A stretch of 64,000 bases of DNA from a virus (IMGVR_UViG_3300045996_003052:1-64000); one strand, 5' to 3'. Counted from the stretch's first letter, positions 9,659 to 48,561 are shown. Translations and numbers: made by a program. The notes: generated by a model not told the origin, from the sequence alone.

Positions 9659-9665
9659 CGTAGCT

Positions 9666-11217: not shown

Positions 11218-11221
11218 ATTT

Positions 11222-11422
11222 TCAATATGCCTTGGACACTAACGTCACTTCAACGTCGCCGACCTGCACCTTGAGGTGGGCGGTGCCGTTGGCGGCCTCC
11301 ACCCACAAGTCCCCGTTAACCCGCTCGCGGGGAGCCATGAGCGTGGGGTTGGAGAGCTTCGTGACTTCCCGTTGGTCCCTAAAGATCTTAGACCGTCGCC
11401 TGGGAGGGCTTGTCTTCGCCAT
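11222..11422 (-). CDS. Hypothetical protein, 66 aa
   Basis: ATG after GGGAGGTAAATAG, a good ribosome binding site. The N-terminal 25 residues are basic (SPPRRRSKIFRDQR). The C-terminal half is a beta-prone segment that ends VGDVEVTLVSKAY. It is the second gene of the leftward late operon. No family recognised. Confidence 0.6.
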   Translation of the reverse strand: MAKTSPPRRRSKIFRDQREVTKLSNPTLMAPRERVNGDLWVEAANGTAHLKVQVGDVEVTLVSKAY

Positions 11423-11434
11423 CTATTTACCTCC

Positions 11435-11716
11435 CTAGCTCGGTGACACCGAGGCTGACGGGCTCTTAGAAGCTGAAGGTGACTTTGAGGCCGACGGGCT
11501 CTTGCTCAGTGATGGTGACGCGCTCAACGAAGGTGACGGGCTGTGCGACGGTGAAACCGACCGGCTCAAGCTGGCTGATGGGCTCTTTGAAGCCGAGGCT
11601 GATGGGCTCTCTGACGGCGACGCGGAGACGCCGAGGCGGTTCTCTACCTCCGCCATCTTTTCCTCTAGCAGGTCGACGCGGTCGCTAAGTAGCTTGAAGC
11701 GAAATTGCCAAGACAT
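11435..11716 (-). CDS. Coiled-coil protein with SPSAS tail, 93 aa
   Basis: First gene of the leftward operon. ATG follows TTAGGAGCC. Residues 1-30 form a short heptad-patterned coiled coil (RVDLLEEKMAEVENRLG). Residues 31-93 are S-P-S-A-S-x repeats running straight to the stop. The same repeat tail on a short oligomerisation helix looks like a minimal, multimeric display module. It is the shortest of the six repeat-bearing late proteins here. Confidence 0.65.
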   Translation of the reverse strand: MSWQFRFKLLSDRVDLLEEKMAEVENRLGVSASPSESPSASASKSPSASLSRSVSPSHSPSPSLSASPSLSKSPSASKSPSASKSPSASVSPS

Positions 11717-11811
11717 GAAGGCTCCTAATTTTCACCGCCTACCGCCTTAGGCGGTAGCGGAGACCATCACCCCGAGGTATTCGGGGCGACACACGGTAGC
11801 CGATTTGACTG

Positions 11812-11840
11812 ACTATATCACGGGCAATTTTGGTTGTACA
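11812..11840 (-). promoter_or_regulatory. Leftward late-operon promoter
   Basis: Read on the minus strand: TGTACA (11,835-11,840), 17-bp spacer, TATAGT (11,812-11,817). This is the same architecture as the rightward early promoters of this window. It lies about 95 bp upstream of the first leftward gene. Confidence 0.65.
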
Positions 11841-12016
11841 ATCCGATTATTAAAATTTTTCCCCCCGGGATTCTCTCTGCCCGATTTGGCTTTTTCGTTC
11901 CCCTGGGGATGTAGGGGGCAACAGTCCCAAAAGTAAAAATTAGTTGGATGTACAACAAAAATTTAATCATAAATTTATATTATCAAATCATAAAAAACAT
12001 TTATGAACGATTTTTG

Positions 12017-12044
12017 TTGCAATACATATTGAAAAATGTAGAAT
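12017..12044 (+). promoter_or_regulatory. Rightward promoter of the AT-rich island
   Basis: TTGCAA (12,017-12,022), 16-bp spacer, TAGAAT (12,039-12,044), in AT-rich DNA. It would transcribe the boxA-like left repeat arm and the 105-aa gene. Confidence 0.45.
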
Positions 12045-12064
12045 AGTCATGTAAGTAAATTGTG

Positions 12065-12095
12065 TTCTTTGAAAATTAAATAAAACCGATATGAC
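12065..12095 (+). repeat. 31-bp inverted repeat, left arm, with boxA-like start
   Basis: Pairs with 12,450-12,480 at 30 of 31 positions (one T/C difference). The 5' end, TGTTCTTTGAAAA at 12,063-12,075, matches the boxA antitermination element found in rRNA leaders of many bacteria. The arm lies between the promoter and the start of the 105-aa gene. Confidence 0.85.
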
Positions 12096-12116
12096 TTTTT
12101 CCGTGTGGAGAATAAC

Positions 12117-12434
12117 ATGGCAAAAGCTAGATTATATGCATATAACCCTGACGCGGTAAAAAATGGTGACGCAAAATTGCGCCGCTATGTTGGAGAATTA
12201 AAGGGTCAAGCAAAAGTAGTGCTTGACGAACTCCGACGAAATTTGAAACCACGTCTTGCTGTTGAAATTGAAAAAACGACACCGTTTTTCGAAACCCGTC
12301 AAGAGCGATTTCGCGTAGTTCTGTATTACATTCTTGTTTTTAAATCAAAGGGGATTATTTCTACGTATGACCCAGACGTAGAAAACGAAGATGAAAATGC
12401 GTTCGCAGGTTTGATTCCAACCGACGAAAACTAA
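12117..12434 (+). CDS. Hypothetical protein, 105 aa, in AT-rich island
   Basis: ATG at 12,117 with TGTGGAGAATAAC in front; a GTG 12 bp earlier is less likely. The N-terminal half is basic (KARLYAYNP, KLRRYVGELKGQ), then a helix and an acidic C-terminus (DPDVENEDENAF). Third codon positions are AT-rich, unlike its neighbours, so recent acquisition is likely. The whole gene is bracketed by the 31-bp inverted repeat. Unknown function; an early regulator or a cargo gene of a small mobile segment are both open. Confidence 0.65.
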   Translation: MAKARLYAYNPDAVKNGDAKLRRYVGELKGQAKVVLDELRRNLKPRLAVEIEKTTPFFETRQERFRVVLYYILVFKSKGIISTYDPDVENEDENAFAGLIPTDEN

Positions 12435-12449
12435 AAAATCAAAATCTTT

Positions 12450-12480
12450 GTCATATCGGTTTTATTTAGTTTTCAAAGAA
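12450..12480 (-). repeat. 31-bp inverted repeat, right arm
   Basis: Minus-strand copy of the left arm; the minus strand reads TTCTTTGAAAACTAAATAA and then the AACCGATATGAC end. Its boxA-like end therefore points leftward, toward the late-left operon. Confidence 0.85.
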
Positions 12481-12491
12481 AGGAAAAAAAA

Positions 12492-12617
12492 ATGTTAAAA
12501 ATTACTGATTTTATTCGTGAGATTTCAATTCAGATTTTTGGTGAAGGAAATCGAATTGATGATTTTCTTTGTCAGTGGCAATCAACCCATTATTTTGGAG
12601 GTAAAATTATTTATTAA
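12492..12617 (+). CDS. Small AT-rich protein, 41 aa
   Basis: ATG after AAAGAAAGGAAAAAAAA. Reads MLKITDFIREISIQIFGEGN with one amphipathic helix and ends GGKIIY. Same AT-rich composition as the 105-aa gene, but it lies outside the inverted repeat. No family recognised. Confidence 0.5.
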   Translation: MLKITDFIREISIQIFGEGNRIDDFLCQWQSTHYFGGKIIY

Positions 12618-12663
12618 AAAATAAAAACATGGCTTAATTTCCCACCAACTAGCCTGCCCCGCA

Positions 12664-12686
12664 CCCCGGGCACCGCGCCCGGGGTC
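12664..12686. repeat. GC-rich hairpin, 9-bp arms
   Basis: ACCCCGGGC and GCCCGGGGT around ACCGC, at the abrupt change from the AT-rich island to GC-rich DNA. No T-tract, so it is not a standard intrinsic terminator. Confidence 0.6.
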
Positions 12687-12747
12687 CCACCACCGACCCG
12701 TGGGCGGGGGCCGGCCCGGGTACTAGGGTCGAGGTAAGGAGCGAGGT

Positions 12748-12903
12748 ATGAATCTCACTGTGAACGGCAAGGTCTGGGCCATCGCGTGGATCGAGGTCGG
12801 CGGCTACTGGGAGGCCCGCTGCGGGCACAGGGTCCTCGAAACGTACACCATCGAGGAACTGTGTTACCTTCTTCCCCGCACGTACGTCGCCACGGAGAAC
12901 TGA
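12748..12903 (+). CDS. Hypothetical protein, 51 aa
   Basis: ATG after GTAAGGAGCGAGGT. The product reads MNLTVNGKVWAIAWIEVGGY with a short CGH and a TIEELCYLL helix. It is followed after 1 bp by the next small gene. Unknown. Confidence 0.55.
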   Translation: MNLTVNGKVWAIAWIEVGGYWEARCGHRVLETYTIEELCYLLPRTYVATEN

Positions 12904-25100: not shown

Positions 25101-25160
25101 AGTTCTTGAAGATTGAGCTTGACCACAATTTTTGTGGTCAACAACAAGGAGGGTAGAAAA

Positions 25161-25757
25161 ATGGCAACAGTAAGACGGTACAGCGTTCACAAGGTGCCCG
25201 AAGACAAGGTGTTCAAGGGGCAGCCGAAGGTCATCATGGACCACCTGGCGAAGCACCCGCGGTCAACCGTGGCCGAGATGGCGAAGGTCCTAACCTTCGA
25301 GGGGTCGCGGCAGGCGCCGGAACGTGTCATCGCGTTCTACATGACGACCTTCAAGAAGACCGGCCTCGTCAAGGCCGAGGAAGAGGTCGTCGAGGACACA
25401 GCCGGTAAGGCCGCGGAGGCCGACTCTGGCGAGGAGGACGAGGCCGACGAGGACGAACAGGATGAAAACGGCGAGATCAACGAAGAGAGGCTACCCGTTG
25501 AGGAACGGGTAGCCTACCACGAGGAACTCTCTGCCGCCGAGCCGTCGCCTGGGGGCAAGTACGACGGCCTCAAGATGACCGAGGCAGTTTTACGGGTCCT
25601 TAAGTCCCGGAAAACTGCCAACGCGGAGGACATCGCCAAGTACCTAGTAGAAAACGGGTACCAGGCGCAGCCGAAGCAGGTCACCGGCGCGCTCATCAAC
25701 CTCATCAAGCAGGGGGTCGCGAAGAAAGGCGATCTCAATACCTACTCCCTCAAGTAG
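25161..25757 (+). CDS. Tandem winged-helix protein with acidic linker, 198 aa
   Basis: ATG at 25,161 after AGGAGGGTAGAAAA. Residues about 15-65 form a first winged helix (VIMDHLAKHPRSTVAEMAKV, then QAPERVIAFYMTTFKKTGLV). Residues about 75-125 are an acidic linker. Residues about 140-198 form a second winged helix (AVLRVLKSRKTANAEDIAKY and LINLIKQGVAKKGD). The first domain is paralogous to the C-terminal part of the 39,971-40,603 protein, sharing QAPERV and FK-GLV. I infer a DNA-binding regulator or chromatin-like protein with its own promoter. Carries two large inverted repeats. Confidence 0.7.
   Translation: MATVRRYSVHKVPEDKVFKGQPKVIMDHLAKHPRSTVAEMAKVLTFEGSRQAPERVIAFYMTTFKKTGLVKAEEEVVEDTAGKAAEADSGEEDEADEDEQDENGEINEERLPVEERVAYHEELSAAEPSPGGKYDGLKMTEAVLRVLKSRKTANAEDIAKYLVENGYQAQPKQVTGALINLIKQGVAKKGDLNTYSLK
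25488..25515. repeat. Intragenic inverted repeat, 12-bp arms
   Basis: AGGCTACCCGTT and AACGGGTAGCCT around GAGG, within the acidic linker of the winged-helix gene. Confidence 0.9.
25583..25619. repeat. Intragenic inverted repeat, 9 + 4 bp arms
   Basis: GGCAGTTTT and AAAACTGCC, then an A/G mismatch and CGGG/CCCG around a 9-nt loop. Second hairpin in the winged-helix gene. Confidence 0.85.
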
Positions 25758-33176: not shown

Positions 33177-33662
33177 GTGCCTGGACAGTTCACACCGTTT
33201 AGGGGGAAGCTGGAGAAGGTTCAAGAAGACCCAGAACGTCAAGAGAAGCTAAATGCCATCAAGGCGGACCTTGATAGCAAGAAGATGGGCGAGGTGGCGG
33301 AAGAGTACCGCGCGTACTACGACCGCAAGGAGAAGCTGAAGGAGGAGGAGTCTGAAGTCCAACTTCAGCTAGACGCGCGGATCCAGCTGCTCGTCGCTAA
33401 CCTAGAAGCGGCTGGGCTGGAGCAAGTTCGAACTAACGACGGCGGCACCACCCTCTTCATTAAGGACGACGTCTACTGCTCCCAGGAAAACCGCGAGGTG
33501 TTCCTCAATTGGATCAGGGAGACCAACAAGGAGGAAATGTTGACGGTGCACTACTCGACGATGAGCGCGATGGCGAAGGACGCGCTCCAGAAAGGCAGGC
33601 CGCTGCCTCCTGGCCTCAAGGCGTACTTTAAGCAGACAATCGGCATCCGGCGGAATAAGTAA
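33177..33662 (+). CDS. Conserved coiled-coil phage protein, 161 aa
   Basis: GTG after AAGGGAGAGCC. N-terminal charged coiled coil (AEEYRAYYDRKEKLKEEESE), then a domain with TNDGGTTLFIKDDVYC and a C-terminal PLPPGLKAYFKQTIGIRR. This layout recurs in phages just upstream of a putative ssDNA-binding or primase gene. It is probably a replication accessory protein, function unproven. Confidence 0.6.
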   Translation: MPGQFTPFRGKLEKVQEDPERQEKLNAIKADLDSKKMGEVAEEYRAYYDRKEKLKEEESEVQLQLDARIQLLVANLEAAGLEQVRTNDGGTTLFIKDDVYCSQENREVFLNWIRETNKEEMLTVHYSTMSAMAKDALQKGRPLPPGLKAYFKQTIGIRRNK

Positions 33663-33672
33663 AGGAGACGGC

Positions 33673-34467
33673 ATGGCGAAGACCGACCTAGAAAAACCTG
33701 GCACCACGGCAATCGACATTCAAAAATCACGGCCCGAGTTTCTAAAGGAGCGCGAGGGGAAAGAGATTCGGGGACTCGAGGAGGTTGGCTCCGACGAGAT
33801 GGTGCTGCCGCGGCTGACCCTGACGCAGGGAACGACGCCGCAGCGGCAAGAGGCGAACGCAAGCTTCATCCCCAACCTCAAGGAAGGCGACTTCTTCAAC
33901 TCCCTCACGAAACAAATCTATGGGCGGCGCGTTGTGGTGATGCCGCTACTCTTCAGAAAGTCGCGCATCTACTTTAAAGACATCAACGAGGGCGGTGGCT
34001 TGATCTGCCGCGCACCCCACGGCAATGACTGCCAGCTAAATGCGGGCGGCCTGTGCCTCCACTCCCGCTGGCAGGCTGATGGCACGCCGCCGGCGTGCAC
34101 GGAGTTCTACAACTACGCGTGCCTGCTGTATCCTAGCAACGAGCCCATCGTAGTGAGCTTGAAGGTGACCGGCATTCGTGCCGGTAAGGAGTGGAACAGC
34201 AAGATGCGGATGCGTGGTGCCGACCCGTTCGCTGGACTTTATGAGATTAAGTCCATCCAAGTGCCCAACAAAACCCGCCAGCTGTATTGGACGTATCAAA
34301 TCGACAACGCGGTCGAGGACGGTGGTTGGGTGAGCAACGACCAGTTCCAATACAACGAGAAGCAGTACATGCTTTGGTCAGAGAACCTTGATACTGGCAA
34401 GGCGAAGGTCGACGAGTCAACGCTTTCAGAAGAACAATTTGCGATGCGTGACGCTGCTGAAATGTAA
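33673..34467 (+). CDS. Putative replication protein (ssDNA-binding-like), 264 aa
   Basis: ATG after AAAGGAGACGGC. Pattern MVLPRLTLTQGTTPQRQE, then KEGDFFNSLTKQIYGRRVVV and a Cys cluster (CRAPHGNDC-LNAGGLC...C) that may bind zinc. This arrangement is that of a phage family sometimes proposed as ssDNA-binding proteins. Position between the coiled-coil protein and the primase supports a replication role; biochemical proof is not available to me. Confidence 0.55.
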   Translation: MAKTDLEKPGTTAIDIQKSRPEFLKEREGKEIRGLEEVGSDEMVLPRLTLTQGTTPQRQEANASFIPNLKEGDFFNSLTKQIYGRRVVVMPLLFRKSRIYFKDINEGGGLICRAPHGNDCQLNAGGLCLHSRWQADGTPPACTEFYNYACLLYPSNEPIVVSLKVTGIRAGKEWNSKMRMRGADPFAGLYEIKSIQVPNKTRQLYWTYQIDNAVEDGGWVSNDQFQYNEKQYMLWSENLDTGKAKVDESTLSEEQFAMRDAAEM

Positions 34468-35996: not shown

Positions 35997-36169
35997 TGGT
36001 CTTTATGCCACAGCAGCCGTTTTTCTTAATTTGCCCACATTGCACAAATAACGACCCTACGATGTTTTCGTTACTAGGTTACCTAATGAGTAGCAAGGGA
36101 CGGATGTACCTCTGCGAGGTTTGTTCGCGCGCATTTAAGGTGCTGGACGATGATACAGCTAACAGATAG
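35996..36169 (+). CDS. Zinc-finger protein, 57 aa
   Basis: ATG overlaps the primase stop by one base (GTGATG). CPHC at residues 13-16 and CEVC near residue 40 form a four-cysteine ribbon. Overlaps the HNH gene by 20 bp. Not recognised further. Confidence 0.55.
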   Translation: MVFMPQQPFFLICPHCTNNDPTMFSLLGYLMSSKGRMYLCEVCSRAFKVLDDDTANR

Positions 36170-36593
36170 GCAAATAGAACGTTTTTGGTCCCGTGTTAAT
36201 AAAACAGAAAGTTGTTGGCTTTGGACCCATACATTATTAGAAAATAGATACGGAATGTTTGGTGGCAAACCAGCACACCGAGTAGCATGGATGATTACCA
36301 ATGGAGAAATTATTAACGGTCTGCACGTGCTTCACAAGTGCGATGTAGGAATATGTGTTAGACCAGATCACTTGTTTTTAGGTACGCATACAGATAATAT
36401 GCAAGACATGATCAAGAAAGATCGTGCCCACTATTTAAGTGGTGAAAGTAATCGTGCAAGTAAATTAACAAGGTTACAAGTAGACGAAATAAGAAGAATT
36501 CGTAATCATACTACTTTAGACCAGTTATCGCGCCAATTTAATGTTTCAGTATCTACCGTAATGAATGTTATTCATTTCAGAACATGGCGATAG
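36150..36593 (+). CDS. HNH homing endonuclease with C-terminal HTH, 147 aa
   Basis: ATG start. Core HNH pattern is intact: SCWLW, HRVAW, HVLHKC (first His), CVRPDHLFLGT and N-x-x-D. The C-terminus has a short HTH (TLDQLSRQFNVSVSTVMNVI) as in free-standing phage homing endonucleases. AT-rich third positions differ from neighbouring genes, and the AT-rich tract runs into the helicase gene downstream. It probably spreads between phages by cutting that gene in recipients lacking it. Confidence 0.8.
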   Translation: MIQLTDRQIERFWSRVNKTESCWLWTHTLLENRYGMFGGKPAHRVAWMITNGEIINGLHVLHKCDVGICVRPDHLFLGTHTDNMQDMIKKDRAHYLSGESNRASKLTRLQVDEIRRIRNHTTLDQLSRQFNVSVSTVMNVIHFRTWR

Positions 36594-38529: not shown

Positions 38530-38844
38530 ATGGCTGATCAAGGGTTTGAGGTCGTACAGCGGCCACGTGGCGGAGGAAACGTACCAGACGCGCTGATGAA
38601 GGCACTAATCGAGACGGTAAATACCGACAAGGCGGTACGTGTCAAGCTAGACGGACACGCGGCGTTCACGAACTGGCAGGCGACGATTCGCGCGCGATTG
38701 CGCACAGATCACCAGCTGCGGTTGCGGACGAAGTTCAACAAGGCGAACAACGTGGTCACAGCGTGGGTTGAGAAGTTCGACCCCCGGGAAACGGGAGAGG
38801 GCATGACAGATGAGGACCTTGGCGTATCCGAAGATAAGTCCTAA
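38530..38844 (+). CDS. Hypothetical protein, 104 aa
   Basis: ATG after TTAGGAGGACAGA. Basic, helix-strand protein (TDKAVRVKLDGHAAFTNWQA, TIRARLRTDHQLRLRTKFN). Such small proteins with a regular N-terminal helix occur next to DNA-modification genes in phages. Overlaps the next gene by 35 bp. Unknown. Confidence 0.55.
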   Translation: MADQGFEVVQRPRGGGNVPDALMKALIETVNTDKAVRVKLDGHAAFTNWQATIRARLRTDHQLRLRTKFNKANNVVTAWVEKFDPRETGEGMTDEDLGVSEDKS

Positions 38845-39658
38845 GTTCGATCCGCACGCGCCGAGTCCCAGGATGTTCTGGGAGTTCTGCGCAATTCGGA
38901 TGGACGAGTGGTGGAACCGACACGAGGGGCTAGGGCCGCCGTATACGGCGGACCCAGCCCTCCAACGCTACGTAGGAGATATACCAAATGTCTTTAGGGA
39001 ACTCGACGAGCCGAACATCTACCTCCATAACTGCATCAACGGCCAAGGTACGGGGGTGGCGTTATTTGGGGCCGTGGCCTTTAGACTCACTAATAAAATT
39101 GGTATACATCAAGGTTTTGGCGGGGTCCCACGTCCAGATCAATATCCAGCTTGGCGGGAATATTTCCTTGATGCACGTAGTCGAGGCGTCACAGCTTATA
39201 CGCGAATATTTCAAACTCCAACAACGACGCAGTACCTTGAGACGCTTGGCGAGCTTGCAGAAGGAATGCCTGCCATCGCTGCTCAAATTGATGCGTGTAC
39301 AACGCTCCACGACGCGTACCACGTCATTAACAAGATTAACCGCGTCCGGAATTTCTTCGCGTGGCAAGTCTGCGCGGACATGCTCGAGGCCAAGGCGCTG
39401 AACTACGACGAGAACTCTTGGTGCTACCTCGGGCCGGGACCGCTTCACTGCTTCCACTTGATCTTTGGGCGGCGGTTTTCGCAGAGCGAGGCGCTGGGGA
39501 TCGCTCGCCGAATGCATGAGGTTCAGCACAGGGCCTTGGCGAATACCCTTGTACCTTGGCGGTTACCTCCAGGGTACAAGGAGCTTACGCTAAAGAACAT
39601 CGAGCACGCCGCCTGTGAATATTATAGATGGGTCAAAGCGCACTGGAGGATACTATAA
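38810..39658 (+). CDS. 5-hmdU DNA kinase helical-domain-like protein, 282 aa
   Basis: ATG within the end of the preceding gene. The N-terminal pattern FWEFCAIRMDEWWNRHEG, then TADPALQRYVGDIPNVFREL, matches the helical domain of 5-hydroxymethyl-deoxyuridine DNA kinases and the related glycosylase-like modification proteins of hypermodified phages. The later YLGPGPLHCFHLIFGRRFSQ and NIEHAACEYYRWVK are also typical. In those systems the fold binds modified bases in DNA. It has no kinase P-loop of its own here; the P-loop protein at 43,195 may supply that. This assignment is by pattern recall and needs a profile search. Confidence 0.6.
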   Translation: MRTLAYPKISPKFDPHAPSPRMFWEFCAIRMDEWWNRHEGLGPPYTADPALQRYVGDIPNVFRELDEPNIYLHNCINGQGTGVALFGAVAFRLTNKIGIHQGFGGVPRPDQYPAWREYFLDARSRGVTAYTRIFQTPTTTQYLETLGELAEGMPAIAAQIDACTTLHDAYHVINKINRVRNFFAWQVCADMLEAKALNYDENSWCYLGPGPLHCFHLIFGRRFSQSEALGIARRMHEVQHRALANTLVPWRLPPGYKELTLKNIEHAACEYYRWVKAHWRIL

Positions 39659-39659
39659 A

Positions 39660-39917
39660 ATGCAAAATCTTCGGATGAAAGAGTACCTAGAGAACGGAAG
39701 CTGCCTGGACGTTAATGCTGTGGGCGTACCGGTGGAGGGGTTTGAGGGGGTTGCCTGGGAGCTCAAGAAATTCTTGGACGGCTACGACTACTGCGACGCG
39801 AAGAATGAGCGGTGGATGTGGAGCATCGGACAGCGCGTCACTGATAGCCGTATTTTTGCGGCTACAGACACGAGGTTCTACGCGAACCCGATGTTCAAAT
39901 GCCTGTGGTTGCGGTAA
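39660..39917 (+). CDS. Hypothetical protein, 85 aa
   Basis: ATG at 39,660 after TGGAGGATACTATAAA, 1 bp past the previous stop. Reads MQNLRMKEYLENGSCLDVNA and ends FYANPMFKCLWLR. Unknown. Codes between two modification-region genes. Confidence 0.55.
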   Translation: MQNLRMKEYLENGSCLDVNAVGVPVEGFEGVAWELKKFLDGYDYCDAKNERWMWSIGQRVTDSRIFAATDTRFYANPMFKCLWLR

Positions 39918-39970
39918 GTAAAAAAAGATGAGTCTACGGCGCATTATTTTGTGTACAAGCGGAGGGTAAC

Positions 39971-40603
39971 ATGATAGAGTTACCTACATTGAGAGAGGGA
40001 ATGTTGGTACGCTACCCAAATAATTCCATTTGGTATGTGGACTACATCAGCCCCTCAGGCGCCTACGTCATACCCATCACTGGGTACGAGACGGAGATCG
40101 TCACATCTGCTCGCAAGGGACGAAAGCGAGCAGCTGTAGTGAAATATCCTGCTCCGCAGGTAATTTCACTACACTCCGTACTCGAGGTGCTTGACCCAAC
40201 TTCCTTCAACGTGAAGGACATCATGAGGAGAGTTATGGCGAGAAAAGCAGCAAACGAAGGTGGCGTGGCGGAGATGGATCCGGGAGCAACGGTAGAAGGC
40301 GCGAAGGCGGAGCGGGCGCCACGCACCACGCAGAAGTACGTGCGCACGACAAAAGAAGCCAAGGAGATGCGCGGCCAGGGCCGCGTGGTCCTCGACTTCC
40401 TGAACGCGACGACTGAACCGAAGTCGGTCGCCGAGGTGACCGAAGCGGTCAAGGGCGCGATTGGCGGCAAGCAGGCGCCGGAGCGGGTGGTTGGCTACTA
40501 CCTGACACGCTTCAAGCGCGATGGCCTGGTCAATGTCGTGAAGTCCGACGGCACGTCCACCCCAGGAGCTGGGGTGGAGGGCCTCGAGTCAGTAAACGCG
40601 TAA
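39971..40603 (+). CDS. Two-domain protein with winged helix, 210 aa
   Basis: ATG after GGAGGGTAAC. N-terminal 80 residues form a small barrel (LREGMLVRYPNNSIWYVDYI). The C-terminal winged helix (RVVLDFLNATTEPKSVAEVT, QAPERVVGYYLTRFKRDGLV) is clearly related to the first domain of the 25,161-25,757 protein. DNA-binding is inferred. Three inverted repeats lie in the coding sequence, followed by an intrinsic terminator at 40,629. Confidence 0.6.
   Translation: MIELPTLREGMLVRYPNNSIWYVDYISPSGAYVIPITGYETEIVTSARKGRKRAAVVKYPAPQVISLHSVLEVLDPTSFNVKDIMRRVMARKAANEGGVAEMDPGATVEGAKAERAPRTTQKYVRTTKEAKEMRGQGRVVLDFLNATTEPKSVAEVTEAVKGAIGGKQAPERVVGYYLTRFKRDGLVNVVKSDGTSTPGAGVEGLESVNA
40135..40173. repeat. Intragenic inverted repeat, 11 + 5 bp arms
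   Basis: TGTAGTGAAAT/ATTTCACTACA, two mismatched positions, then CCTGC/GCAGG, loop TCC. A separate 8-bp pair (CTGCTCGC/GCGAGCAG) is 20 bp upstream. Confidence 0.85.
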
Positions 40604-40628
40604 ATCCCGCACAGGGAGGTACGCAATT

Positions 40629-40660
40629 CGGGAGGGGGAAACCCCTCCCGATTTTCGTTT
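40629..40660 (+). terminator. Intrinsic terminator
   Basis: CGGGAGGGG and CCCCTCCCG around GAAA (40,629-40,650), then ATTTTCGTTT. Best plus-strand intrinsic terminator in the window; it separates the winged-helix gene from the next small gene. Confidence 0.7.
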
Positions 40661-40672
40661 AAGGAGGACCAC

Positions 40673-40936
40673 GTGGCAAAGTGCTTAAAGTGCGACCAAT
40701 GTGGTCTTGTTTCAGGCGCAACTTTCGACAGCAAGGCGTGGGGGTTTCTCAAGGTAAGTTTTGACGATAACTTTGTTCAAACATATAATGAAAATGGAAC
40801 CCCGTTGGATTTTTGCAGCCTTCGCTGCCTTTCGAATTGGGCTAATTCTAAGGTTGCCCATGAGGAGAACAAAGATGGCGTTAAAGATCAAGTGCTACAA
40901 AGACGCCCGGGGCGAGTTCCGTTGGACGGCGCTTGA
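40673..40936 (+). CDS. Zinc-ribbon protein, 87 aa
   Basis: GTG after AAGGAGGACCAC. CLKCDQCG near the start and CSLRC near residue 50 give zinc-ribbon character. It is typical of phage proteins with a rubredoxin-like knuckle. Its last 62 bp overlap the DUF1508 gene. Confidence 0.55.
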   Translation: MAKCLKCDQCGLVSGATFDSKAWGFLKVSFDDNFVQTYNENGTPLDFCSLRCLSNWANSKVAHEENKDGVKDQVLQRRPGRVPLDGA

Positions 40937-41093
40937 CGGCAACAACAAGGTCATCGCGGACGGGAGCGAAGGGTACAGCACAGAACGTAATTTGGTGTTG
41001 GCGCTCAAGAACACGCTGGCCGAGTTTCGCGAACCCGTGAAATTTGTCGGCTTTCAAATTCCGCTTCAAGCGAAGCGGACACCGGAGCTATGA
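40875..41093 (+). CDS. DUF1508/YegP-like protein, 72 aa
   Basis: ATG at 40,875 after GAGGAGAACAAAG. The pattern IKCYKDARGEFRWTALDGNN, then ADGSEGYSTERNL, matches the YegP/DUF1508 fold (small tandem-repeat beta-alpha-beta domain), for which no function is established. Confidence 0.65.
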   Translation: MALKIKCYKDARGEFRWTALDGNNKVIADGSEGYSTERNLVLALKNTLAEFREPVKFVGFQIPLQAKRTPEL

Positions 41094-41176
41094 CAATGAC
41101 CACAGTCATTGTCATTGCCACGTTTATCGCCGTCTTCCTGGTCGTGTACTTCGTCGGCCGAAGGCTTGCGGGTTAA
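41090..41176 (+). CDS. 28-residue single-span membrane peptide
   Basis: ATG overlaps the DUF1508 stop by 4 bp. Sequence MTMTTVIVIATFIAVFLVVY and then FVGRRLAG: one membrane span with a basic C-terminus. Its first codons form a 10-bp hairpin TGACAATGAC-CACA-GTCATTGTCA (41,091-41,114). Too short for most gene finders. Confidence 0.5.
   Translation: MTMTTVIVIATFIAVFLVVYFVGRRLAG
41091..41114. repeat. Intragenic inverted repeat, 10-bp arms
   Basis: TGACAATGAC and GTCATTGTCA around CACA, starting one base inside the membrane-peptide gene. Confidence 0.9.
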
Positions 41177-41183
41177 AAAAAGA

Positions 41184-41212
41184 TGTACATCACGATAATC
41201 TCGTGATATAAT
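41184..41212 (+). promoter_or_regulatory. Rightward promoter with operator-like spacer
   Basis: GGTTAAAAAAAG, then TGTACA (41,184-41,189), 17-bp spacer, TATAAT (41,207-41,212). The spacer holds ATCACGA/TCGTGAT, an inverted repeat that could be an operator. An ATG 6 nt downstream (41,219) opens an 11-codon peptide whose stop overlaps the next start. Confidence 0.8.
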
Positions 41213-41247
41213 CTTCTTATGAATCTTAGGCGTTCAGAACCAACAAG

Positions 41248-42528
41248 ATGTTAAACGAACAACCACAGCGAAGTAAGCGTGTCAGGGAAGACCGACGCTT
41301 CGACAAGACGCAGCTCAAGGCCGCTGGACACGGGAGGACTGTGAACCGAGATTACGGATCCCATGCCTTGCGGTGGAACTTTGTTGTTAATGAGGTAAAC
41401 AAGCCTATGGAAGAAGCGTTAGGATTCTGGGCAGCTGGCCTTATTGACGGCGAAGGCTGCTTCGACATCAGGGTCTCTCGAGAAGGTCGAAATTCACTAC
41501 AGTTTATTTTTCAGCTAGGGTTACGAGCTGACGATGAAGAAACTATAGAGCTTTTGCGCAACCTCCTGAAGGTTGGTAAGATTAGCGACCAACAAAACGA
41601 ACGTATTACCAACGCCAAACCGATTAAAATGCTAACGGTTTGTAGTCTTGAAGATTGTCTTGTTCTCAGAGACTTCTTTCTCGACGCGCCGTTGCGTTCT
41701 AAGAAACGTTTCGACTTTGCAGTATGGGCTGAAGCGTTAACAGCCTTTGAAGTCCACAAGAAAACCAATTATCAGCTTACTGACGAGCTGATGTCGAAGA
41801 TGGAAAACTACCAGAAGGAGTTAAGAGAAGGCAGAAAATTTCCATCAACCGCTCTTCCACCCAGGAAAGACTACATTAAGGATACTTTTCTACGTTGGGG
41901 CTGGGCAGCCCGACAAATCAAGCAGGGAGAGTCCATTCTCGACGTAGGTTGTGGGCAAGATCAGCCGCTACTGTACGTTCTCGCTTCACGGAAACAAACC
42001 GTCCCCGACGTGTACGTTGGGGTCGATTTAAACCGGATCGTGAAGAAATCGGCCTGCAGGTGGGCCGACATTTACGACGAGTTCGACTTCGTTAACAACG
42101 GCAGGTGGCTGATCGACAACGAGAAGGGCTACACGCCCTTCGACAAGGCGGTGTGCTTTGAGGTTATTGAACACATGGCTCCCGAAGACGGAATTAAGTT
42201 ATTGGAAACCCTTCACTACTGCCTACGTCAAGGGGGTATTCTCTTCCTATCCACACCCGTGTTTGATGGTTATCGTGCCGCTAACCACATCCATGAGTAC
42301 ACCATCCCAGAACTCAGCGCTACGATTCAAAATTCAGGTTTTCGAGTTCAACGTCGAATTGGTACGTTTGCTTCTAAGCCTGAAATTCGACCGGTCTTAG
42401 ATGAGCACGAGAGGGCTGTCTACGAACGGCTAGAGGAGTGGTTCGGCGGCGACGTCCTGTCGACGATCTTCGCATCCCTCCACCCTGACCAGAGCAGGAA
42501 TAACCTCTGGGTTTGCGAGCGCGTATGA
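41248..42528 (+). CDS. Methyltransferase interrupted in frame by a LAGLIDADG domain, 426 aa
   Basis: ATG overlaps the leader peptide's stop. Residues 1-47 and 205-426 fit a phage SAM-dependent methyltransferase: ESILDVGCGQDQPL (motif I), VYVGVDLNR, FEVIEHM and a GGILFLSTP strand. Between them, residues about 50-200 hold a LAGLIDADG homing-endonuclease core (ALGFWAAGLIDGEGCFDIRV and a degenerate second half). Exon-like text is doubled at the junctions (RDYGSHALRW before, RKDYIKDTFLRW after). No intein N/C splicing blocks are visible and there is little room for a group I intron, so this looks like an in-frame insertion. Activity of either part is uncertain. Confidence 0.7.
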   Translation: MLNEQPQRSKRVREDRRFDKTQLKAAGHGRTVNRDYGSHALRWNFVVNEVNKPMEEALGFWAAGLIDGEGCFDIRVSREGRNSLQFIFQLGLRADDEETIELLRNLLKVGKISDQQNERITNAKPIKMLTVCSLEDCLVLRDFFLDAPLRSKKRFDFAVWAEALTAFEVHKKTNYQLTDELMSKMENYQKELREGRKFPSTALPPRKDYIKDTFLRWGWAARQIKQGESILDVGCGQDQPLLYVLASRKQTVPDVYVGVDLNRIVKKSACRWADIYDEFDFVNNGRWLIDNEKGYTPFDKAVCFEVIEHMAPEDGIKLLETLHYCLRQGGILFLSTPVFDGYRAANHIHEYTIPELSATIQNSGFRVQRRIGTFASKPEIRPVLDEHERAVYERLEEWFGGDVLSTIFASLHPDQSRNNLWVCERV

Positions 42529-42977
42529 GGTTCTGTACACCGCATTGGACAAAGCTGCGTGAGGCTATCGACAGCCGTGGCCTGACACCGTTCATCGCTA
42601 AGGACGGGAAGGTCGCTACAAAGCAGCTCATCAAACAGCTTGAGGACCAAGACGTCACGAAAGCCACGTTCGACCCACTAATGTCGGCGCACTGGGCCAT
42701 TGCGGGAAATACTATGAGCCTAATTGACCAGACTGGCAACAACCCGCTGTACTTGCTGGCGGGTGAAGAGGCGCCGGAAGACCCGGTTAAAGGTTATCCT
42801 GGCTTTGAAAGCCGAACGTGGCCCCGGTGCCCGCTGTGTTACATCAACCTGGCACATGAGGTCTCGTGCACGAACCCTAAGTGTATGCTAGACAAACAGC
42901 ACGGTTACGATTGGATGATCGAACGCGCGGCGGACGACGCACTCGCACGGGCGCGCGAATTTGGACTGATAGCTTAA
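42525..42977 (+). CDS. Conserved phage zinc protein, 150 aa
   Basis: ATG overlaps the previous stop by 4 bp. N-terminus MRFCTPHWTKLREAIDSRGL, centre FDPLMSAHWAIAGN, and a C-terminal CPLCYINLAHEVSCTNPKC cluster. This is a recurring phage family of unknown function with a likely zinc site. Confidence 0.65.
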   Translation: MRFCTPHWTKLREAIDSRGLTPFIAKDGKVATKQLIKQLEDQDVTKATFDPLMSAHWAIAGNTMSLIDQTGNNPLYLLAGEEAPEDPVKGYPGFESRTWPRCPLCYINLAHEVSCTNPKCMLDKQHGYDWMIERAADDALARAREFGLIA

Positions 42978-42989
42978 CGGAGGGGATTC

Positions 42990-43190
42990 ATGAATGGAAA
43001 AATCGCGCGGCTCGTCAAGGACAAAGGGTTCGGGTTTATTAAGGCAGGTGGGTCAGACTACTTCTTCCATCGGTCATCGGTCAAAGGCGTCGCCTTTGAG
43101 GACCTGAAGGAAGGTGCTGAGGTAACGTTCGAGGAAGCGGAAGGTGCGAAAGGGCCGCGGGCCGAGGACGTCTACCTCCGGGACAACTAG
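42990..43190 (+). CDS. Cold-shock-domain protein, 66 aa
   Basis: ATG after ACGGAGGGGATTC. KGFGFIK (RNP1) and YFFHRS (RNP2) in a 66-residue OB fold identify a CspA-type single-strand nucleic-acid-binding protein. It could act as RNA chaperone or aid replication, and it fits a genome with many hairpins. The C-terminus is standard. Confidence 0.85.
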   Translation: MNGKIARLVKDKGFGFIKAGGSDYFFHRSSVKGVAFEDLKEGAEVTFEEAEGAKGPRAEDVYLRDN

Positions 43191-43194
43191 GGCT

Positions 43195-44124
43195 ATGATT
43201 TGCATTTTGGAGGGACCGGACGGAAGCGGCAAGACCACGCTAGCGAGGCACCTTGAAAAAAACTATAGCTTTCAATACCGACATATGGGGCCGCCAAGCG
43301 GCATACCGCCGCTTCAAGAGTATGGACGCGCTCTTTACGACGCTGCTTGCGGAGGTGGAGACGTCGTCTTCGACCGCCTACACGTTGGCGAGCGGGTTTA
43401 CGGACCAACACTTAGAGGTGTTGATTTACTTGGGCGAGGGGGTGAGGTTCTCATTCACCGTTTGCTCACCGCCTATGGGGCCCGACTTGTCTTCTGCCTT
43501 CCACCGTACAGTGTCGCGTTTGAAAACTGGCTCGAGCGCCACCAAGGTGGCGCCGAACTCATCAAGAAAAGTCAAACCTACGAGCAAGTCTACTACGCGT
43601 ACAAGGCGCTGAGCAACGACTTATTCTATGCCGACTCCGTCTGGTGGGACTATACGCTACAGCCTATGGAGCTCGCGGCAAAGACGTTGTTAACCTTCGA
43701 CGCGAAACGCCCGCGGTGTCCCGAGGGCGTGGTGGGAAGTCCAAACCCACAATTTTTATTCGTGGGGGAACAGGCAAACCAGGAGTACCTAGACATTCCG
43801 TTCTTCGCGCTTGACAACTCCAGCCACTTCCTAAACTCCTGCATCAAAGATGCAGGATTTCAGGAAAGAGACATTGCTCTTGTTAACGCTAAGGCTTTGG
43901 ATGGCGCTAAAGCACCCCTAGGCGCAATTTATATGGCCCTTAGGGAACCGAAAGTTATAGCTCTAGGGTCACATGCATCTCACGCGTTAAAAGCCCAAGG
44001 GGTCACGCACCATAAACTCCCGCATCCAAGTTATTGGAAGCGCTTTCACAGCTCGAGGCCCGACGAGTATGTCCGACAGCTCCGAGAAATTCGTATCAAC
44101 TCCTACCACGTTCAGCGCGCGTGA
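43195..44124 (+). CDS. P-loop nucleotide kinase fused to UDG-like domain, 309 aa
   Basis: ATG 4 bp after the cold-shock gene. Residues 1-170: thymidylate-kinase-type P-loop GPDGSGKTT, VVFDRLHVGE and a lid region. Residues about 180-309 have uracil-DNA-glycosylase-superfamily features: PQFLFVGEQANQEY, then FFALDNSSHFLNSC, ERDIALVNA, and KVIALGSHAS ending LPHPSYWKRF. Phages with hypermodified thymine use kinases and glycosylase-like enzymes in the pathway. I infer a bifunctional modification enzyme. Fusion seems genuine because the frame is continuous and a 9-bp hairpin (43,837) lies in it. Confidence 0.65.
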   Translation: MICILEGPDGSGKTTLARHLEKNYSFQYRHMGPPSGIPPLQEYGRALYDAACGGGDVVFDRLHVGERVYGPTLRGVDLLGRGGEVLIHRLLTAYGARLVFCLPPYSVAFENWLERHQGGAELIKKSQTYEQVYYAYKALSNDLFYADSVWWDYTLQPMELAAKTLLTFDAKRPRCPEGVVGSPNPQFLFVGEQANQEYLDIPFFALDNSSHFLNSCIKDAGFQERDIALVNAKALDGAKAPLGAIYMALREPKVIALGSHASHALKAQGVTHHKLPHPSYWKRFHSSRPDEYVRQLREIRINSYHVQRA

Positions 44125-44968
44125 ATTTCACACGGCCTGGGATGAACTGCTACGTTACCTGTTTTACCATGGCCAGACCGCGAGTCCTCGCGGGCTGACC
44201 ATCAAAGAACAGCTAAACGTCACAATTCATGTCAGAGACGCGTACCGAAACATCCTAGTCAACCCGTCGCGCAATATCGGTTACCGCGCAATGGTGGCCG
44301 AGTGGCTGTGGATTGCCGGCGGTTTCAACGACCTTGAATCGCTGGCCCAGTACAACGCAAACTACCGTAAGTTTAGCGACGACGGTGAGACGTTATACGG
44401 CGCATACGGCCCCAGGATTAGACTGAACTGGGGCGTTGTGCGCGATCAGTTGAATACTGATCGCGACACACGGCAGGCCTACCTGCCAATCTGGGGACCG
44501 GACACCAGGCGCAACACGAAGGACACGCCTTGCACGTTGGGGATGCAATTTCTAATTCGAGGCGGACAACTGCACCTGACGGTAGGGATGCGAAGTTCTG
44601 ACGCGTGGCTAGGCTTACCGAACGATTTCTACGTGTTCTCACAGCTGCAGAACGAGATGGCTGCGGCGTTAACGGTTCCAATAGGCTCACTGACGTTGAA
44701 CCTAGGATCATCGCACCTCTACGAAACTAACTTTAACCTAGTTGAACAGTCGTTCGAACACGAAAGCCGCACAATCAGAACCCCAAGTTTTAGCTATGCT
44801 ATTGAATTTTTGCCTGAACTATATCGACGTTTTCAGACAATGTCGGGTACACAGATGTCGGTTGGAGGAGAAACGATATGGGACCTCTACGCGAAGATCT
44901 TAGTGACCCCCAGTCGGGTGGACGCCTTAGCCTTGTTGAAGAAGATCGAAAAAATGACGGACGACTAG
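44069..44968 (+). CDS. Thymidylate-synthase-like dCMP (hydroxy)methylase, 299 aa
   Basis: ATG inside the kinase-fusion gene (56-bp overlap). TS fold signatures: NPSRNIGYRAMVAEWLWIAG, YGPRIR, catalytic Cys155 in KDTPCTLGMQF, and RSSDAWLGLPND (175-186). In thymidylate synthases the last Asp is Asn (E. coli Asn177), which selects dUMP. Asp at this position is found in dCMP hydroxymethylases (T4 gp42) and gives dCMP specificity in engineered TS. So I expect 5-methyl- or 5-hydroxymethyl-dCMP as product. Contains a 10-bp inverted repeat at 44,441-44,465. Confidence 0.7.
   Translation: MSDSSEKFVSTPTTFSAREFHTAWDELLRYLFYHGQTASPRGLTIKEQLNVTIHVRDAYRNILVNPSRNIGYRAMVAEWLWIAGGFNDLESLAQYNANYRKFSDDGETLYGAYGPRIRLNWGVVRDQLNTDRDTRQAYLPIWGPDTRRNTKDTPCTLGMQFLIRGGQLHLTVGMRSSDAWLGLPNDFYVFSQLQNEMAAALTVPIGSLTLNLGSSHLYETNFNLVEQSFEHESRTIRTPSFSYAIEFLPELYRRFQTMSGTQMSVGGETIWDLYAKILVTPSRVDALALLKKIEKMTDD
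44441..44465. repeat. Intragenic inverted repeat, 10-bp arms
   Basis: CGCGATCAGT and ACTGATCGCG around TGAAT, in the TS-like gene. Confidence 0.9.
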
Positions 44969-45387
44969 ACATCCACGAGTACTACCTACAAATGCTCTCC
45001 TTGGTCGCGTCGCGGTCCACCTGCCGACGACGTGCCGTCGCCGCCATCATTACGGACCACAAGGGCATGGTCCTGTCAACCGGCTACAACGGTGTGCCGC
45101 GAGGTATTGCGCACTGCCTCGTGAACCCGTGTCCCGGTGTCAGCGACCGTCCAGGCGACTCATCGCGGTGTGAAGCGGTTCACGCCGAAGTCAACAGCAT
45201 CGTCCAGTGCGCGGACCTTAGCCGCGCGACGATCATGTATGTCTCTTGCACGCCTTGTTTTAGCTGCGCGAAGATGATTCTCAACACGCCGATAAAAGTA
45301 GTTAGGTGCGTAGAGGCGTACGCTGACAGGTCGGGCATTGAGATGCTAAGTCGTGGTGGTATTCAAGTTTTCGTAGGCCGTGGCTAA
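44878..45387 (+). CDS. dCMP deaminase-like protein, 169 aa
   Basis: ATG after GGTTGGAGGAGAAACGAT, overlapping the TS-like gene by 91 bp. Zinc site H102-A-E104 and CTPCFSC (Cys127/Cys130). The TGYNGVPRGIAHC and PG--S-RCEAVHAE regions match dCMP deaminases of T4 type. It converts dCMP to dUMP and so would control the pool used by the neighbouring TS-like enzyme. Confidence 0.85.
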   Translation: MGPLREDLSDPQSGGRLSLVEEDRKNDGRLDIHEYYLQMLSLVASRSTCRRRAVAAIITDHKGMVLSTGYNGVPRGIAHCLVNPCPGVSDRPGDSSRCEAVHAEVNSIVQCADLSRATIMYVSCTPCFSCAKMILNTPIKVVRCVEAYADRSGIEMLSRGGIQVFVGRG

Positions 45388-45562: not shown

Positions 45563-47404
45563 GTGAAGCCATCAGCTAATCAAGGATCGCTTTTTGTTCG
45601 AGAATCAATTTCTGGGTGGCGTGCGCCTGAAGTATTTCCTGAAATAGACTCAAGGTACACGCGTATTGGATTTGATACAGAAACTTCCCACAAAGGGTGG
45701 CGTGACCCAAAAAATAAAGTCGTCGGAGTTTCTTTAGCTTTAGAAGATGGCCGGGATTTCTATTTCCCGTGGGGACATCTTGGAGGTGGTAACTTAGATA
45801 AAAGTAGAGTTCTAAACTTCCTGAGCAAGACCCTCAAAGGTAAGACCTTAGTTTGCGCAGAAGCGAAGCACGAGATCCAGATGATGCGCCGGGAGGGCGT
45901 AGACTTCGAGGCTATGGGGTGTGCCATCCGAGAGGTTCAATACCCGCCCGCTCTATTATCTGACGCGCGGCGTTCTTTTCAGCTTAACGACTTAGCCAAG
46001 GACTTCCTTGGCCGCGAAAAGATCGACCTAGACGCGGCAAAGATCTGGGAAATGCCAGCTAGCGAAGTTGGCCCGTACGCCGAACTCGATGCCCGCCTAA
46101 ACCTAGACCTAGACACCGTATACGCACCGCTTATTCAAGAGCAAGACCTTGGAAAGGTTCTACAACTAGAATACGACCTGATCTACTGCGTTTGTGAGAT
46201 GGAGCGGAACGGAGTCCCGCTCGACGTACCTAAGCTAGCGCGTTGGCGCCGAGAGGCAGGGCAGCGGTGGGACCAGGCAGTCTACCAAGTCCACCGCGAC
46301 AGCGGGCTGAAACTCAACTTTAACTCGCCGCTCCAAGTAGCGCAGCTCTTTGACAAGCTCGGTCTTGAGTATCCCAAGACAGCGGGTACGAAGCAGCACC
46401 CTGAAGGTTTTCCAAGCTTCACCGACGCCTTCTTGTCGGACATCGACCACCCCCTGGTGCAGTCAGTGCGCCGGGCTAAAGCCGTCGATTCGTTGCGAAC
46501 CAAATACCTTGACAAGTACTGGGACGCACTAGTTGACGGCTACCTCCACTACAACCTTCACCAGCTGAAGGCAAACGAGTATGGTACTATCTCGGGAAGA
46601 TTCTCTTCAAGTAGCGTTAATATTCAACAGGTGTTTGATCCAGAACGACAAGAAGATAAGCTGGGCTTCATGGAGTGGCTCATCCGCGAACTTTTCTTGC
46701 CAGTACCTCCCAGGACACCTGGGAGATACTGGTGGGTTAAGCTCGACGCGTCCCAAATTGAATTTCGACTCTTTGTGCACTACTCGCGGTCTGCGCGGCT
46801 TATTAAGCGATTTTGTGAAGACCGTGGGGTCGACTTCCATCAAATGGTCGCCGACCTTTGCCGTATCAAGCGTAAGCCCGCCAAGAATATCAATTTCGGA
46901 AAACTATTTGGCATGGGCCGAGAAAAAATGGCGCGTCAGCTTGGACTACCGCAAGATGAAGCTGACAGTCTATTTGATCAGTACAACGCGATGTTTCCCG
47001 AAACCCAGGAGCTGATGAACGCCACAATGTCCCTGGCTAAGGCGCGCGGCTATGTGAAAACGAGACTCGGACGCCGAGCTCGTTTTCCCGACGGGGAGCG
47101 CCTGCATTCTGCCTTAAATAGGGTGATTCAAGGCAGTGCGGCAGACGTACTGAAGCTAAAGCTGTTGGAGGTCTACAACAACCGCAAGTTCTTCGACATC
47201 CATAAGCTGCTGTTCACAGTCCACGACGACATCAACATCGCGACCCAGAACCTACGACGGGTTCGAGACATTAAAGAATGTCTCGAAGCCCCCATACCCA
47301 ACCTGCCGTTTCGCGTCCCCATCCTGTGGGACGCGGACGTTGGTCCTAATTGGGCGGTTAACTACCGCGAGAAGCAGCAGACCAAACTAAGGAGGGCTGC
47401 GTGA
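45563..47404 (+). CDS. Family A DNA polymerase with exonuclease domain, 613 aa
   Basis: GTG start. 3'-5' exonuclease: FDTET (Asp38, Glu40) and YAELDARLNLDL. Polymerase motif A KLDASQIEFRL (Asp395), motif B RKPAKNINFG (Lys441, Phe445 in place of E. coli Phe762), motif C FTVHDD (553-556). No 5' nuclease domain, so a phage-type replicative polymerase. Phe at the 762-like site is the bulk-type residue (Tyr or Leu variants are found in other phages). Three strong inverted repeats (46,700; 47,056; 47,262) and a smaller one (47,312) lie in the gene. Confidence 0.9.
   Translation: MKPSANQGSLFVRESISGWRAPEVFPEIDSRYTRIGFDTETSHKGWRDPKNKVVGVSLALEDGRDFYFPWGHLGGGNLDKSRVLNFLSKTLKGKTLVCAEAKHEIQMMRREGVDFEAMGCAIREVQYPPALLSDARRSFQLNDLAKDFLGREKIDLDAAKIWEMPASEVGPYAELDARLNLDLDTVYAPLIQEQDLGKVLQLEYDLIYCVCEMERNGVPLDVPKLARWRREAGQRWDQAVYQVHRDSGLKLNFNSPLQVAQLFDKLGLEYPKTAGTKQHPEGFPSFTDAFLSDIDHPLVQSVRRAKAVDSLRTKYLDKYWDALVDGYLHYNLHQLKANEYGTISGRFSSSSVNIQQVFDPERQEDKLGFMEWLIRELFLPVPPRTPGRYWWVKLDASQIEFRLFVHYSRSARLIKRFCEDRGVDFHQMVADLCRIKRKPAKNINFGKLFGMGREKMARQLGLPQDEADSLFDQYNAMFPETQELMNATMSLAKARGYVKTRLGRRARFPDGERLHSALNRVIQGSAADVLKLKLLEVYNNRKFFDIHKLLFTVHDDINIATQNLRRVRDIKECLEAPIPNLPFRVPILWDADVGPNWAVNYREKQQTKLRRAA
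46700..46732. repeat. Intragenic inverted repeat, 15-nt arms, in polymerase
   Basis: CCAGTACCTCCCAGG and CCTGGGAGATACTGG, 14 of 15 pairs, loop ACA; just before motif A. Confidence 0.88.
47056..47087. repeat. Bulged inverted repeat in polymerase
   Basis: GAAAACGAG/CTCGTTTTC, one bulged A, then CTCGG/CCGAG, loop ACG. A single unpaired base is the only interruption. Confidence 0.85.
47262..47287. repeat. Intragenic inverted repeat, 11-bp arms, in polymerase
   Basis: TTCGAGACATT and AATGTCTCGAA around AAAG, shortly after motif C. Confidence 0.9.
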
Positions 47405-47568: not shown

Positions 47569-48026
47569 CGAAGCTAGCGTACAACGAGAGCTATTGGACG
47601 CGCCAGCTAATGGCGTACCTAGCTGAGAAACACCGCGACTGGCTCTGTTATAAGCTCGCCGACACGTTTACGTCGGGTATTCCTGACGTCCACGTAGCGG
47701 CAGAAGGGATGGCAACGTGGCTAGAGCTAAAGGTACTGCGGCCAAAGCAAAGTGTATCTGACCGCATTAAGATGCGGTCCGACAGGCACGCGAAGCTTCA
47801 ACTGCACGATATGTGTAAGATTGAAGATAATGGCGTCAACGCTGCGTACCTCTTCTTTTTTCCGCTTGGCGACCTTCACTACGTCGTGCTTAAACCGAGT
47901 ACCGTAAAGGAATGGGTCGACGTTGGAGATAGTCTAAGCTATCAGGAACTTTATCGTGATTCGTACGACGACTTCGTAAAGGTATCGAATTTCTGCGGAG
48001 GTGAGTACAGTGCGCTTCAATTTTGA
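47565..48026 (+). CDS. VRR-NUC-like PD-(D/E)xK nuclease, 153 aa
   Basis: ATG overlaps the previous stop. TSGIPDVHVAAEGMATWLELK carries the GxPD and E-x-K pattern of the PD-(D/E)xK fold, with a preceding helix (SYWTRQLMAYLAEKHRDWLC) as in VRR-NUC and archaeal Holliday-junction-type proteins. In phages such proteins resolve branched DNA. It could cut the cruciforms formed by the many palindromes here, which is speculation. Confidence 0.65.
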   Translation: MTKLAYNESYWTRQLMAYLAEKHRDWLCYKLADTFTSGIPDVHVAAEGMATWLELKVLRPKQSVSDRIKMRSDRHAKLQLHDMCKIEDNGVNAAYLFFFPLGDLHYVVLKPSTVKEWVDVGDSLSYQELYRDSYDDFVKVSNFCGGEYSALQF

Positions 48027-48561
48027 CGACGTCGGCGATTTTCACCGAAAGTTTGGGCTTCACAACGTAACATACACCGCCGCAGAACCGGTAGAGTACA
48101 CTGATGACCTGATTAAATTCAGGCTTAAATTCCTACTGGAGGAGCTCCAGGAGATCGTGGAGGGCTGCGGCTACTGCGTCGCGCACGTCAGTGAACCTCA
48201 GGGCGGTTCCCACCTTGAGGCTGTCAAGAAACCCAACGGTAGCATGAAACACGAGGCCGTCTTCGACGGCCTCTTGGACCTGGCGTACGTGACCTTTGGC
48301 ATGGCGCACGTCCTCGGGTACCCGTGGCAGGACGGTTGGGACGAGGTGCAACGCGCCAACATTACGAAGGAACGCTGCGGCATCAACCACACGTACATAG
48401 ATTCAGGACACCAAGACTATGAAGGATGCGTTTCTTGCGGTAAACCACGCGAACAACATTCACTGCGCGGCTCAGCCTACGACGTCATTAAGCCGCGAGG
48501 TTGGCATGCGCCGGACATCAAGAGCATCCTAAAGCGCGTCGGATTTATCTTGGGTGGCTAG
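48010..48561 (+). CDS. MazG-like NTP pyrophosphohydrolase, 183 aa
   Basis: GTG at 48,010 with GGAGGTGAGTACA; an earlier GTG at 48,001 is adjacent to that site and less likely. The all-alpha fold has RLKFLLEELQEIVEG (E-E-x-x-E) and a later EAVFDGLLDLAYVTFGMAHV, then PWQDGWDEVQRAN. This matches phage MazG/PRA-PH-type pyrophosphatases that trim nucleotide pools or act on (p)ppGpp-like signals. A 9-bp inverted repeat at 48,253-48,273 spans GAGGCCGTC/GACGGCCTC. Confidence 0.75.
   Translation: MRFNFDDVGDFHRKFGLHNVTYTAAEPVEYTDDLIKFRLKFLLEELQEIVEGCGYCVAHVSEPQGGSHLEAVKKPNGSMKHEAVFDGLLDLAYVTFGMAHVLGYPWQDGWDEVQRANITKERCGINHTYIDSGHQDYEGCVSCGKPREQHSLRGSAYDVIKPRGWHAPDIKSILKRVGFILGG

Follow-up and report, generated by a model that had tools for sequence, protein, structure and literature searches.

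A predicted cytosine-modification operon with a thymine-pathway component in an uncultured phage

Which pyrimidine does a phage modify when a protein known from thymine hypermodification stands beside an operon of the cytosine type, and what could that protein do there? This question is raised by a 64-kb stretch of DNA, called the window below, taken from a 75.7-kb IMG/VR virus record of an uncultured phage. A nucleotide search found no known phage with DNA-level similarity to it. The original prediction had assigned five genes of the window to a variant of the pathway by which hypermodified phages decorate the pyrimidines of their DNA. ORF calling and profile searches find all five at the expected coordinates and on the same strand (Table 1), with every family backed by a profile match. 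Two more members of the predicted pathway lie downstream, namely a MazG-like pyrophosphohydrolase and a DNA polymerase (PolA), whose match of 785 bits is to a profile built from related phages and including the window sequence. A role of the cluster in pyrimidine modification, with a component of the type found in phage M6, is supported. The base is another matter, as Asp186, Cys155 and Ser176 mark the thymidylate synthase (TS) homologue as a dCMP-type enzyme.

Table 1. Coordinates of the predicted modification cluster in the window
Feature	Position	Strand	Support
HMUDK_hel (PF18723) protein, standalone, 282 aa	38810..39658	+	E 3.6e-31, 109 bits vs cut-off 25
Methyltransferase ORF (Methyltransf_23)	41248-42528	+	E 1.1e-13; LAGLIDADG_1 in frame inside
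N-terminal methyltransferase fragment, RSKRVREDRRFDKTQLKAAGHGRTVNRDYGSHALRW	41248..41385	+	profile positions 2-44; intact in L115
LAGLIDADG homing-endonuclease domain, in-frame insert	41434..41736	+	PF00961 E 3.4e-13
Catalytic methyltransferase part (Methyltransf_23)	41863..42528	+	profile positions 30-263
P-loop kinase + UDG-like fusion ORF	43195-44124	+	phrog_761 E 7e-13; PF03167 E 7e-4
P-loop deoxynucleoside-monophosphate kinase domain	43195..43689	+	phrog_761 E 7e-13; Foldseek
UDG-superfamily domain fused to kinase	43720..44121	+	PF03167 E 7e-4; PDB profile; Foldseek
TS-family enzyme, dCMP hydroxymethylase type, 299 aa	44069..44968	+	PF00303 8e-17; phrog_5131 5e-46
dCMP deaminase	44878..45387	+	PF00383 1e-16; phrog_174 7e-37
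DNA polymerase A (PolA), same operon	45563..47404	+	PolA profile from related phages
MazG/PRA-PH-like NTP pyrophosphohydrolase	48001..48561	+	PF01503 E 6e-8; phrog_671 2e-18

In the TS homologue, the catalytic cysteine is Cys155 (codon 44531-44533), and alignment places Asp186 (codon 44624-44626) at the position of Asn177 in E. coli ThyA. Within the TS superfamily, cytosine users have Asp and uracil users Asn (PMC5175136), and the dCMP specificity of the T4 enzyme is set by Asp179 (PMC6400193). The ThyA-177 position was found to be Asp in the T4 gp42 dCMP hydroxymethylase and in MilA, and Asn in SPO1 gp29, M6, PhiW-14, the ViI-like phage moki, Pam3, PaMx11 and others, including all reference phages with a known modified thymine. 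The reference phages with HMUDK_hel also have Asn, except for Lucky3. Ser176 (codon 44594-44596) and Arg135 make the enzyme one of the deoxyribose type (Ser167/Arg126), as opposed to the Ala/Lys of MilA (rule from PMC5175136). Among solved structures, the CMP hydroxymethylase MilA is the closest match (4e-20; ThyA 2e-11). In an experimental metagenome study, Asp177 and residue 147 of TS showed the strongest association with cytosine modification, and on modified-cytosine contigs TS co-occurred with PF01503 and PF00383 domains (PMC8670742); the window holds this same set. Position 147 in our TS alignment is Thr together with Asp in 83, and Asn together with Asn in 80, of 174 rows. Given the Asp at the ThyA-177 position, the modified base is most likely cytosine and not thymine.

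The operon is found in other phages as well. Using tblastn, the kinase-UDG fusion was matched in Stenotrophomonas phage AXL3, Pseudoxanthomonas phage PW916, Actinomycetia phage DSL-LC01 and ctUtU524. In all four it directly precedes the TS homologue, followed by the dCMP deaminase, and in three of them a methyltransferase-family gene and an NTP pyrophosphohydrolase come before it. Direct protein searches of IMG/VR gave no close relatives of HMUDK_hel or the kinase-UDG protein, but alignment queries did find relatives, and a profile-guided scan located 80 further kinase-UDG loci. The grouping is not due to chance, since the named phages and dozens of IMG/VR contigs have the kinase-UDG gene, the TS homologue and the dCMP deaminase in this same order. 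A close relative, contig L115, has the order of the window (primase, helicase, methyltransferase, kinase-UDG, TS homologue, dCMP deaminase, PolA, NTP-PPase), and no HMUDK_hel was found within its 20.9-kb stretch. At 9244-10011, between the methyltransferase and kinase-UDG genes, L115 has an ORF resembling ThyX by eye, and AXL3 also encodes a ThyX (gp50); a ThyX would fit a TS homologue that makes no dTMP. Downstream of HMUDK_hel, the window encodes a 210-aa protein that belongs to no known family (39971-40603), with a distant paralogue at 25110-25757 and a homologue at the same operon position in L115.

Among ca 170 typed loci, which are related by descent and come from two separately seeded searches (with HMUDK_hel patterns derived mostly from Asn-type members), kinase-UDG occurs in 69 Asp-type and 0 Asn-type loci, and HMUDK_hel in 78 Asn-type and three Asp-type ones (L018, L124 and L156), the window being the fourth of the latter kind. 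The operon methyltransferase is likewise confined to Asp-type loci of this set. It is important to point out that the Fisher values (<1e-30) overstate the evidence, since the loci share ancestry and the searches were seeded apart. Despite this, the split is plain, and HMUDK_hel is out of place in the Asp-type (cytosine) operon background. Published digestions bear on the same point. The DNA of AXL3 resists 35 of 37 enzymes, among them HaeIII, SmaI, NotI and HhaI, whose sites lack T; the only enzymes to digest it recognise AATT and TTAA, and the authors could not name the base (PMC7504290). A modified cytosine explains this pattern, while a modified thymine alone does not.

We now consider the fusion protein at 43,195. 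A role as a glycosylase-type transferase in the M6 pathway is contradicted by its presence only in Asp-type operons among the loci examined, and by its kinase half, which resembles deoxynucleoside and deoxynucleoside-monophosphate kinases (Foldseek matches to YorR, dTMP kinases and deoxynucleoside kinases, using an AlphaFold model with pLDDT 95.5). This P-loop half may be an hm-dCMP kinase. The profile match of the UDG domain is weak and below the family cut-off; its fold is nevertheless backed by the model, the C-terminal half of which matches UdgX and the Thermus family-4 UDG (Tth) in Foldseek at 2e-5 to 5e-5. A profile comparison with the PDB gives the same Thermus enzyme at 6e-5. The motifs (GE...PF...N...LG..A...HPSYWKRF) include those of the UDG superfamily (GE...PF, N, LG..A and HP), and the domain alignment contains no conserved set of four Cys for the family-4 Fe-S cluster. 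The UDG half probably recognises or removes deaminated bases, that is, U/5hmU or deaminated cytosine derivatives.

The HMUDK_hel protein had been described as resembling the helical domain of 5-hmdU DNA kinases. In M6, however, it is a separate protein (gp55) that adjoins the kinase gp54 (PF18748) and lies near the transferase gp51 (PF18724), so it is not the DNA kinase itself. Moreover, profile searches of the 75.7-kb record found neither the PF18748 DNA kinase nor the PF18724 amino acid:DNA transferase, with M6 and Pam3 as positive controls. The same holds for LuckyBarnes and Lucky3, which also have HMUDK_hel without these two families. Ten residues are invariant in 69 homologues, and the window protein keeps all of them (R30, N60, R63, D66, F182, D190, G208, G210, C269 and E270). 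Its AlphaFold model is confident (pLDDT 91.8) and all-helical. Since sequence comparison found no solved relative, and Foldseek no significant fold match, one can only guess at the reaction: the protein might serve as a scaffold that resembles DNA glycosylases and flips hydroxymethylpyrimidine bases out of the DNA to act on them. Among the best-probability Foldseek matches, none significant, are the 8-oxoguanine glycosylase MjOgg (0.35) and the PaMx11 glycinyltransferase PUGT (8z2m, 0.28); the hhalign comparison with ADDT, a protein with an HhH-glycosylase-like fold, is at most suggestive (P 0.0036, probability 9%).

The four Asp-type proteins are scattered over four positions of the HMUDK_hel tree, where supported branches require four changes, though their own branches are long and the exact placement unsure. 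A single origin was rejected on the basis of these separate placements. No Asp-specific residue was consistent among the three Asp-type sequences compared. Our tentative suggestion, one we would not yet back against its alternatives, is that HMUDK_hel is a tailoring enzyme or base-flipping partner for 5-hydroxymethylpyrimidines in DNA, turned to 5hmC here and independently in Lucky3, L124 and L156 to give a hypermodified cytosine not yet described. In the Asp-type contig L156 (15353-17173), a C5-cytosine DNA methylase (PF00145) is located directly 3' of HMUDK_hel, which hints at a further cytosine link. In LuckyBarnes (10369-12831), HMUDK_hel is immediately preceded by genes for two TAGT glycosyltransferases and for a TS homologue of the Asn type.

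The methyltransferase of the window is split in a way shared by 0 of ca 30 homologues. Its catalytic part is preceded by a repeat of the DYxxxxxLRW segment, so that the segment around the insertion point is present twice; the uninterrupted sequence in L115 is RDYASHFFRWGWVSRQVKQGE. A group I/II intron or other structured RNA was rejected as the cause (no Rfam match, even at E 10), as was an intein (no intein domain in a Pfam search). The operon methyltransferase is interrupted by a LAGLIDADG homing-endonuclease gene. Close to the operon, an HNH_3 endonuclease with an HTH (36150-36593) may be another homing endonuclease.

Building on the gene identities, the specificity residue, the operon conservation and the co-occurrence counts, we infer a cytosine-modification pathway in which HMUDK_hel acts on 5hmC in DNA. 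We consider this reading probable as a whole, the roles of HMUDK_hel and the UDG domain and the last step with its product being the most conjectural parts. The TS homologue would convert dCMP into 5-hydroxymethyl-dCMP, which the P-loop half of the fusion would phosphorylate towards hm-dCTP. The MazG-like pyrophosphohydrolase, presumably a dCTPase, would destroy dCTP, such that the modified nucleotide takes its place, and the dCMP deaminase would supply dUMP/dTMP synthesis. PolA would then build hm-dCTP into DNA, where HMUDK_hel, from the thymine-hypermodification toolbox, would act on 5hmC by base flipping or tailoring to yield a 5hmC derivative, with the fused UDG-like domain recognising or removing deaminated bases (U/5hmU). 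The combination of a cytosine operon with a thymine-pathway protein suggests that the DNA carries an elaborated cytosine not described so far. As judged from sequence, the operon would represent a widespread, uncharacterised type of cytosine modification, here with a rare thymine-pathway component.

A simpler outcome, to which we give a modest chance, is that the DNA contains plain 5hmC, or 5hmC capped with sugar by phage glycosyltransferases, and that HMUDK_hel is idle or has some other role. All parts for 5hmC are present, the window encodes two GT2-family proteins at 5606-7252 (-) and 10243-11217 (-), and LuckyBarnes combines HMUDK_hel with its two TAGT glycosyltransferases while lacking PF18748 and PF18724. 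The GT2 genes are, however, far from the operon, near a BACON-domain protein and others without a link to modification, and their products have no PHROG match; an idle HMUDK_hel is at odds with its conserved invariant residues. Beside the BACON-domain protein, the GT2 pair could cap 5hmC or modify surfaces.

Another option, which we regard as rather improbable, is that the Asp-type TS homologue methylates dCMP as in Xp12 and the DNA carries 5mC. Residue 177 cannot separate hydroxymethylation from methylation: the Asn177Asp variant of ThyA yields 5-methyl-dCMP (PMC8670742), and the residue alone therefore cannot exclude methylation. The AXL3 digestion pattern is compatible with 5mC too. Hydroxymethylation is instead favoured by the nearest solved relative being a hydroxymethylase, by the TS profile match that stops at residue 235 and leaves the C-terminal tail unmatched, and by the occurrence of HMUDK_hel elsewhere in loci of the hydroxymethylpyrimidine type. 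Finally, thymine hypermodification via 5hmdU, as in the original prediction, is very hard to maintain: HMUDK_hel does adjoin the 5hmdU kinase in M6 and 78 of its 81 typed loci are of the Asn (dUMP) type, but the TS homologue has Asp at the specificity residue, the PF18748 kinase and PF18724 transferase are absent, and the operon is wholly within the Asp group.

To our knowledge, most elaborate non-sugar modifications that start from a hydroxymethyl group concern thymine, and the cytosine elaborations we know to be described are glycosylation, carbamoylation and a carboxymethyl route. A cytosine operon with a thymine-pathway protein suggests an exchange of parts between the two toolboxes, and offers a natural system for probing the role of HMUDK_hel without its usual kinase and transferase. 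With the Asp/Asn rule and the kinase-UDG fusion as guides, many genes annotated 'thymidylate synthase/kinase' could be reassigned to a cytosine pathway; the two also suggest how the so far puzzling restriction pattern of the cultured phage AXL3 may arise.

It is instructive to compare the window with known systems. The 5hmC pathway of T4 consists of the gp42 dCMP hydroxymethylase, the gp1 dNMP kinase, the gp56 dCTPase and the cd deaminase. The window likewise has a dCMP-type TS homologue, a nucleotide kinase, an NTP pyrophosphohydrolase and a dCMP deaminase, and would follow the same pool-replacement logic. It differs in that the kinase is fused to a UDG-like domain, and in having a PolA-type polymerase, the operon methyltransferase and HMUDK_hel; no T4-type glucosyltransferase was seen among the window genes scanned. 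With the thymidine hypermodification of Pseudomonas phages M6 and Pam3 it shares HMUDK_hel and a TS-family enzyme near PolA. Two genes at 33177-34467, DUF7307 and Pam3_Gp34-like, have counterparts in M6 (gp43 and gp44) and are thus common to the window and thymine-modifying phages. The M6/Pam3 enzyme is, however, an Asn-type dUMP enzyme, in contrast to Asp186 here, and their PF18748 kinase, PF18724 transferase, PLP enzyme and radical SAM enzyme were not found in the window phage. AXL3 and PW916 share the methyltransferase, NTP-PPase, kinase-UDG, Asp-type TS homologue and dCMP deaminase, but their methyltransferase is intact and their whole genomes contain no HMUDK_hel. In the Microbacterium phage Lucky3 (Kojivirus), HMUDK_hel adjoins a Ploopntkinase3 gene, and the 14.8-kb stretch examined has no kinase-UDG profile match; like the window, however, this phage combines HMUDK_hel with an Asp-type TS homologue.
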